This document shows positions 15,963 through 16,333 of a stretch of 64,000 nt of DNA, piece after piece. The notes below the pieces were generated by a model that was given only the letters and a program-made list of their open reading frames with translations, made no database searches and was not told where the DNA came from. Source of the stretch: an uncultured Clostridia bacterium (GTDB taxonomy: Bacteria; Bacillota; Clostridia; Saccharofermentanales; Saccharofermentanaceae); contig CAJOLL010000002.1 of NCBI GenBank assembly GCA_905235455.1, positions 1-64,000 on the forward strand, given 5' to 3'. A program made the position numbers and the translations under genes. Position 1 is the stretch's first letter; each line of letters begins with the position of its first letter.

Positions 15963-16298
15963 AGTTTTATTATCCTTTCGAAATCAAATGTGTTGTGTTC
16001 TAAAGCGTAAACGACAAATGACGTGGCATATGCAGACTCAAGGAAGAACCGTCACATGCGCTCCGCTTTGTTTTTGTTTTTTCTTGCAGGGTCGCGTGCC
16101 AACACGCGAAATGGGAATTGCCATCACATATGGTCCGTTGATGGCCGAACTGTCACACCGATCACAAGATCGGAGAGGGACCGGTCAACAACATCGACAC
16201 ATTCGTCCGAAACGATAATTTTGTCTATTCAACTGGATAAGAAGCTCTCTCATTTTGCTCATCCTTACGTTTCGAATTACCTAGCAAATAACTAGGTT
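15963..16298 (-). promoter_or_regulatory. Long structured leader of the sulfhydrylase-cysK operon
   Basis: About 335 bases are transcribed before the gene. After the Cys-rich leader ORF (16185-16262) come three hairpins, all with perfect stems: CCGATC/GATCGG (16158-16173), a 7-bp GCCATCA/TGATGGC stem (16120-16145) and CGCGTG/CACGCG (16093-16108). GGTCC after the ORF stop can pair with GGACC in the loop of the second stem, a possible pseudoknot. S-box (SAM-I) and T-box core sequences are absent. No clear U-tract terminator was found, so the mechanism is open. Confidence 0.6.
16185..16262 (-). CDS. Candidate cysteine leader peptide upstream of the sulfhydrylase-cysK operon
   Basis: A 25-codon frame (22 from the second ATG at 16253, which has AAGGATGAG upstream) ends Met-Cys-Arg-Cys-Cys-stop. 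Three Cys codons, with two adjacent to the stop, directly before a structured leader and cysteine biosynthesis genes suggest ribosome stalling on uncharged tRNA-Cys, as known for Cys-rich upstream ORFs in mycobacteria. Position is ~36 bases after the predicted transcription start. Too short for compositional proof. Confidence 0.6.
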   Translation of the reverse strand: MSKMRELLIQLNRQNYRFGRMCRCC

Positions 16299-16304
16299 GT
16301 TTGA

Positions 16305-16333
16305 ATGATAAACCACTTCACCTACCATGTCAA
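16305..16333 (-). promoter_or_regulatory. Promoter of the sulfhydrylase-cysK operon
   Basis: TTGACA (16333-16328) and TATCAT (16310-16305) with a 17-base spacer. The -35 overlaps the end of the truncated zip fragment. Confidence 0.75.

Follow-up and report, generated by a model that had tools for sequence, protein, structure and literature searches.

Leader open reading frames (ORFs) that encode cysteine are known in Actinobacteria (Seliverstov 2005, PMC1262725); the mycobacterial ones are, as described in two papers citing Canestrari 2020 (PMC9094748, PMC13236596), leaderless polycysteine small ORFs (sORFs). In Rhodobacterales, the uORFC-8-2 motif precedes cysS and combines two tandem Cys codons with an intrinsic terminator (PMC8632094), and among cysteine leader peptides the open-access literature gave us cases from these two groups only. 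Sulfur genes of Clostridium carry Cys T-box and S-box leaders (PMC2940859). Here we analyze the leader of an operon encoding O-acetylhomoserine (thiol)-lyase, or sulfhydrylase (OAHS), and CysK in an uncultured Clostridia bacterium of the Saccharofermentanaceae; the window is the whole stretch that was studied, positions 1 to 64,000 of contig CAJOLL010000002.1 (assembly GCA_905235455.1). The leader lies on the minus strand, spans from a promoter-like site to OAHS, and holds a short upstream ORF (uORF) that an earlier reading of the letters alone (the sequence-only reading) had taken for a Cys-codon attenuator in a Firmicute. We consider it probable, at about 60%, that the element is a ribosome-mediated translational attenuator in which the ribosome would stall at the codons CGA-AUG-UGY when cysteine, perhaps methionine, is scarce.

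The uORF (MRELLIQLNRQNYRFGRMCRCC, then a stop; 22 codons; 16253-16185, minus-strand features being numbered here in reading direction) lies just after the promoter and ends in Cys-Arg-Cys-Cys, as the sequence-only reading had stated. It starts at least 45 nt 3' of the promoter and is not leaderless: a Shine-Dalgarno sequence (SD), AAGGA, conserved in relatives, stands 8 nt 5' of its ATG (16266-16262). The 22-codon form is kept in relatives, but the 25-codon form that had also been considered was dropped, the ATG at 16262 being out of frame in them. An internal AUG as the true start was ruled out as well, since no SD directly precedes it and conserved peptide lies upstream of it. The leader was matched in 22 of the 23 genomes of the genus and, because of this conservation, a chance origin is excluded. 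Conservation within the genus peaks at two places, the 3' half of the uORF and the last 50 nt 5' of OAHS, which contain its SD region. The peptide was found in 20 readable leaders of the genus and also in distant Clostridia loci that had been fetched by OAHS similarity alone; it has no match in NCBIfam.

The terminal Cys run, which the sequence-only reading had singled out, is not the conserved feature, because the ends of the uORF vary. Within the genus we read MCRCC, MCRCI, MCQCI, MCRC-stop, MCRCF, MCCCC and FGRM-stop, and over all members the run is variable or absent (FGRMC-stop, RMCKAFRN-stop or FGRM-stop, for example). In the window, the codons that differ in relatives are CGA-UGU-UGU (Arg-Cys-Cys, 16196-16188), and the invariant ones are the CGA-AUG-UGU just before them (Arg-Met-Cys, 16205-16197). 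What is conserved instead of the run is thus CGA-AUG, the most constant codons of the uORF, usually followed by UGY, and in one subgroup the longer R-x-N-[FY]-R-F-G-R-M. Alignment had been proposed as the check, with loss of the Cys codons under a retained RNA structure pointing to a new riboswitch; its outcome is mixed: most lineages retain the first Cys codon but not the later ones, and two sister genomes have UGA in its place although their pairing is retained largely or in full.

Outside the genus, the loci examined were the 80 best from a capped OAHS scan and the 30 best from a phylum sample, with counts that ignore kinship among loci. In an unbiased k-mer count, CGAATGTG was the top enriched 8-mer upstream of these OAHS genes, occurring in 14 leaders where mononucleotide shuffles give 0.1. 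CGAATG occurs 28 times in the last 300 nt of 105 leaders (10.3 in dinucleotide shuffles), and 25 of these 28 sites are in frame within a short SD-led uORF, where dinucleotide shuffles give 0.6. The Arg codon preceding Met in these uORFs is CGA in 25 cases and CGT in one, while in long ORFs at the same loci CGA makes up 29 of 321 (9%). UGY directly follows AUG in 18 of the 25, and others have Cys codons nearby; in all, 24 of the 25 contain Cys codons or stand beside them, odd cases like L202 apart. R. flavefaciens ATCC 19208 is among the carriers, with the SERMC version. A set of 60 leaders of lower-identity OAHS genes lacked the core, with two CGAATG sites and none in frame in an SD-led uORF. 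Three uORFs (L201, L202 and L209) are unlike the other CGA-AUG uORFs and may be chance; in L201, 111 nt before OAHS, four Cys codons stand directly 5' of CGA-AUG (MTGFSKLCCCCRMTF...), in an order opposite to that of the usual core. On the OAHS tree, the labelled uORFs fall in several separate places, where the FGRM type accounts for at least four changes, NNRRM for one and the others for at least three. Closely related OAHS genes, at about 80% identity, are present in gut and rumen members of the Clostridia, Bacteroidota, Spirochaetota, Synergistota, Elusimicrobiota and Fibrobacterota, a distribution that points to extensive horizontal transfer or, for some of them, to wrong binning of metagenome-assembled genomes.

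Within the NFRFGRM subgroup, the constraint extends to the peptide. R(-7), N(-5), F(-2) and G(-1) are retained across families despite codon changes: 10 of 10 distant sequences have Arg seven codons 5' of CGA, written with five codons (AGA, CGT, CGG, CGA and CGC), Asn is encoded by both of its codons and Gly by three, and the ratio pN/pS over the peptide block is 0.20-0.26, that is, under purifying selection. For the Arg before Met, CGA is the only codon used. That Arg(-7), Asn and Gly switch codons while this Arg does not speaks for selection on the peptide together with a codon-specific need for CGA. Searches for the NFRFGRM pattern outside the genus (family, order and phylum sample) returned two single hits with AGG or AGA in place of CGA, which we judged to be chance; the remaining RMC-uORF pattern hits before other genes of the genus are unshared and resemble chance or coding sequence.

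The genome has tRNA-Arg genes with the anticodons ACG and CCG and, as none dedicated to CGA was found among the tRNAs read, CGA here should be decoded through inosine wobble of tRNA-Arg(ACG). In an assay with the Salmonella his leader, CGA was translated significantly slower than CGU and CGC (PMC4046918), and by analogy it may slow the ribosome in the sulfur-gene uORF.

The 3' half of the uORF is complementary to the OAHS SD region, so that the OAHS start would be masked in the free leader. In the window, the anti-SD arm (16219-16197) is predicted to pair with 15993-15969, which includes the SD AAAGGA (15978-15973), in a duplex of -27 kcal/mol that none of 300 shuffles equals. A helix of about 22 bp is predicted in the genus, where at most 4 of 300 shuffles are as good in 18 of the 20 members and 87.6% of the aligned cells are paired, compared to 32-53% with the partners slid. 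Four of its pairs have two-sided changes, such as U-A/C-G at synonymous positions. When the core was covered by a model ribosome footprint (29 nt masked, P site at AUG), the probability with which the OAHS SD of the window is predicted to be unpaired rose from 0.17 to 0.73, while control masks elsewhere left it at 0.17, and a comparable gain was computed for L083-L085, L087, L044 and L081. Further, the anti-SD duplex is better than most shuffles in L028, L044, L031 and L051, and in L009 the same two places pair through an unrelated, perfect 14-bp complement. Predicted masking of the SD therefore has good support in the window and among its close relatives. Conservation of the uORF, invariance of its codons, constraint on its peptide, and the complementarity with its upkeep are what the computation finds.

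Translation of the uORF, stalling, signal and induction we infer, as follows. With plentiful cysteine, possibly methionine, the uORF would be read fast, the ribosome would leave at the stop, the helix would shut and little OAHS would be made. With Cys-tRNA or Met-tRNA scarce, the ribosome would halt at UGY or AUG, the slow CGA, which only the ACG (ICG) tRNA-Arg would read, having primed it and the nascent R-x-N-[FY]-R-F-G-R-M peptide perhaps holding it in place; sitting over the anti-SD arm, it would set the SD free and allow translation of OAHS-cysK. Among the candidate signals cysteine comes first, given the Cys codons and cysK, and methionine is possible because AUG is more constant still and OAHS makes homocysteine. 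No intrinsic-terminator-like site was found in the window leader, and the output is likely translation initiation through SD sequestration, not transcription termination; the attenuator first proposed is thereby supported in part, as a leader peptide with Cys codons that would control sulfhydrylase-cysK in a Firmicute with neither T-box nor S-box. In distant relatives, the stalling module would be retained and its coupling to the downstream gene would vary. More generally, and as a tentative proposal that we hold with less than even confidence, CGA-AUG-UGY could be an undescribed, codon-defined stalling module: a wobble-read CGA ahead of codons for Met and Cys, whether or not the nascent RxN[FY]RFGRM takes part, making the ribosome hypersensitive to the availability of both sulfur amino acids, old, scattered over the OAHS tree and wired through lineage-specific RNA structures.

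Several results weigh against this translational attenuator. Two genus members (G018 and G010; L086 and L100) have no significant anti-SD duplex, and in four leaders (L092, L093, L101 and L102) the fixed footprint brings no gain in SD accessibility. About ten distant leaders show no significant SD sequestration, and the SD is open regardless in the NNRRMCC clade; masking as a universal read-out is therefore ruled out. The sequences vary so little that part of the covariation is weak. Slow decoding is a putative reason for the invariance of CGA. Finally, in the sister genomes G022 (L101) and G021 (L102) the core, about 125 nt before OAHS, reads CGA AUG UGA, with the stop directly after FGRM. 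These two genomes retain the pairing largely or in full; in G021 the change from UGU to UGA is matched by a change of the partner letter near the SD, from U-A to A-U, and the pair is retained.

The loss of Cys codons in the sister genomes also bears on a different explanation, in which R-x-N-[FY]-R-F-G-R-M acts as an arrest peptide in the style of TnaC or ErmCL, stalling through contacts with the exit tunnel in response to a small molecule or precursor, with the Cys codons only part of the arrest site. The survival of R(-7), N(-5), F(-2) and G(-1) through codon changes and the low pN/pS would be expected of it, and so would the retention of RFGRM where the next Cys is replaced by Arg, Trp or Tyr (3 of 10 distant members) or by the stop of G021 and G022. 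Conserved residues 5' of the presumed stall site were found in the NFRFGRM subgroup only, however; since the other groups (NSERMC, NNRRMCC and YRMC) retain only R-M-C, the tunnel-contact part is not universal. Nearly all members have Cys codons no more than three codons after RM, and an arrest peptide would require that a precursor induce a biosynthetic gene, so that we regard this explanation as unlikely. Alternatively, an RNA-level element (a riboswitch or a protein-binding hairpin) could recognise the xCGAAUGUG loop, the uORF being incidental. Such a loop of 9 nt does exist on hairpins of 6-9 bp in seven leaders (L006, L007, L187, L188 and L190-L192), with lineage-specific stem sequences, and the core outlives the Cys codon in G021 and G022. 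But many members have no such hairpin, which rules out a universal hairpin displaying the core (that of the genus lies in the loop of a weak 4-bp stem only), the letters 5' of CGA and 3' of AUGUG vary, selection acts at the peptide level, and the in-frame placement of 25 of 28 CGAATG sites in SD-led uORFs would be unnecessary for a pure RNA motif. We think this very improbable.

Translation of the uORF could instead govern transcription attenuation or Rho-dependent polarity, a mechanism put forward for the polycysteine leaders of mycobacteria. It would share with those leaders the placement of Cys codons ahead of the uORF stop and the lack of intrinsic terminators (PMC1262725), and long leaders offer room for it, with 95-265 nt between uORF and gene. 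This distance shrinks to 2-40 nt in several distant members, though, and neither the window leader, with no terminator-like site, nor most leaders of the genus, which lack T-runs, speak for termination. The SD region is a conserved block adjoining the gene, which polarity would not need. Polarity therefore appears a poor candidate, with little likelihood in our estimate.

The genes that the leader would govern are OAHS (15962-14685, minus strand; TIGR01326, 654 bits, cut-off 495) and, second in the operon, cysK, encoding cysteine synthase A (14598-13666, minus strand; TIGR01139, 450 bits, cut-off 351). The promoter-like site is of sigma-70 type, TTGACA-17-TATCAT (16333-16305, minus strand), with 11 of 12 matches; about one site of such quality is expected by chance within the 64,000-nt window, and an equivalent -35/-10 layout is visible in the leaders of relatives. 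It is flanked by two 19-bp ACCTA-N9-TAGGT palindromes, one over the -35 box (16338-16320), a candidate repressor operator, and one near the transcription start (16297-16279) that doubles as a 5'-terminal RNA hairpin. Of 117 OAHS upstream regions, 31 contain CCTA-N8-10-TAGG, where shuffles give 1.95. A transcription regulator, perhaps of Rrf2 (CymR/IscR) type, probably uses the two palindromes as operators, and the OAHS-cysK operon may therefore carry two layers of control.

The whole leader folds better than its shuffles (z -2.6). Between uORF and gene, the three perfect hairpins and the possible pseudoknot of the sequence-only reading are present, all on the minus strand: H1 (16173-16158), 97% paired with one two-sided change in seven close relatives; H2 (16145-16120), with GGACC in its loop and paired in the same seven; H3 (16109-16092), paired in close relatives and rebuilt from other letters in two; and the pseudoknot of GGTCC (16182-16178) with GGACC (16136-16132), paired in 100% of cells and nearly invariant, with little covariation. 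Together they are 92% paired in the seven aligned relatives, compared to 23-39% with the partners slid. As part of the control element they hold for the closest relatives only, to which they are confined, the other leaders of the genus differing in length and sequence. No Rfam family matched the leader at curated or relaxed thresholds (E up to 5), so the absence of T-box and S-box that had been noted stands.

We found no described case of the CGA-AUG-UGY core in the open-access literature, which itself does not cover all publications, and a full-text search for FGRMC gave a single match, to a short peptide from unrelated work on RNA polymerase. A sulfur-gene CGA-AUG-UGY leader in scattered gut bacteria is thus apparently new to description. 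If the reading is true, a leader-peptide sensor acting on translation would add a route of cysteine sensing in Clostridia beyond T-boxes, S-boxes and transcription factors, in hosts that are abundant in gut and rumen. The invariance of one synonymous codon before Met is unusual, and raises the question whether bacteria deliberately build slow wobble decoding into an amino-acid sensor.

Compared to described systems, T-boxes and S-boxes serve the same pathway as cis-acting RNAs of Firmicutes, but they bind tRNA or S-adenosylmethionine (SAM) directly and terminate transcription, and neither family matches this leader. A leader of trp/his type would have an alternative intrinsic terminator, and none was found. 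The uORFC-8-2 motif likewise relies on a uORF with Cys codons as its proposed sensor, but stands before a different gene in a different phylum, with tandem Cys codons and a terminator and with no CGA-AUG core reported. The likeness to the mycobacterial polycysteine sORFs, suggested by the sequence-only reading, extends to a short ORF ahead of sulfur genes with Cys codons close to its 3' end and to the lack of a terminator; those sORFs are actinobacterial, leaderless and defined by the Cys run, whereas the clostridial uORF is SD-led, has CGA-AUG as its invariant part and no conserved terminal run, and would act by SD sequestration. TnaC-type arrest peptides share conserved residues 5' of the presumed stall site, without homology, and here the CGA codon is invariant and not the residues alone, arrest and ligand being putative. 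The erm-type translational attenuators (ermC, ermB) resemble the window leader in their short, SD-led leader ORF, in an SD masked by pairing, predicted here for the free leader in the window and in most genus members, and in a stalled ribosome that would unmask it. They differ in that the leader here serves sulfur amino acid biosynthesis, with Cys/Met supply as the probable signal in place of an antibiotic, and in that the masking arm lies inside the uORF itself, carrying the CGA-AUG-UGY core and forming about 22 bp directly with the SD region.
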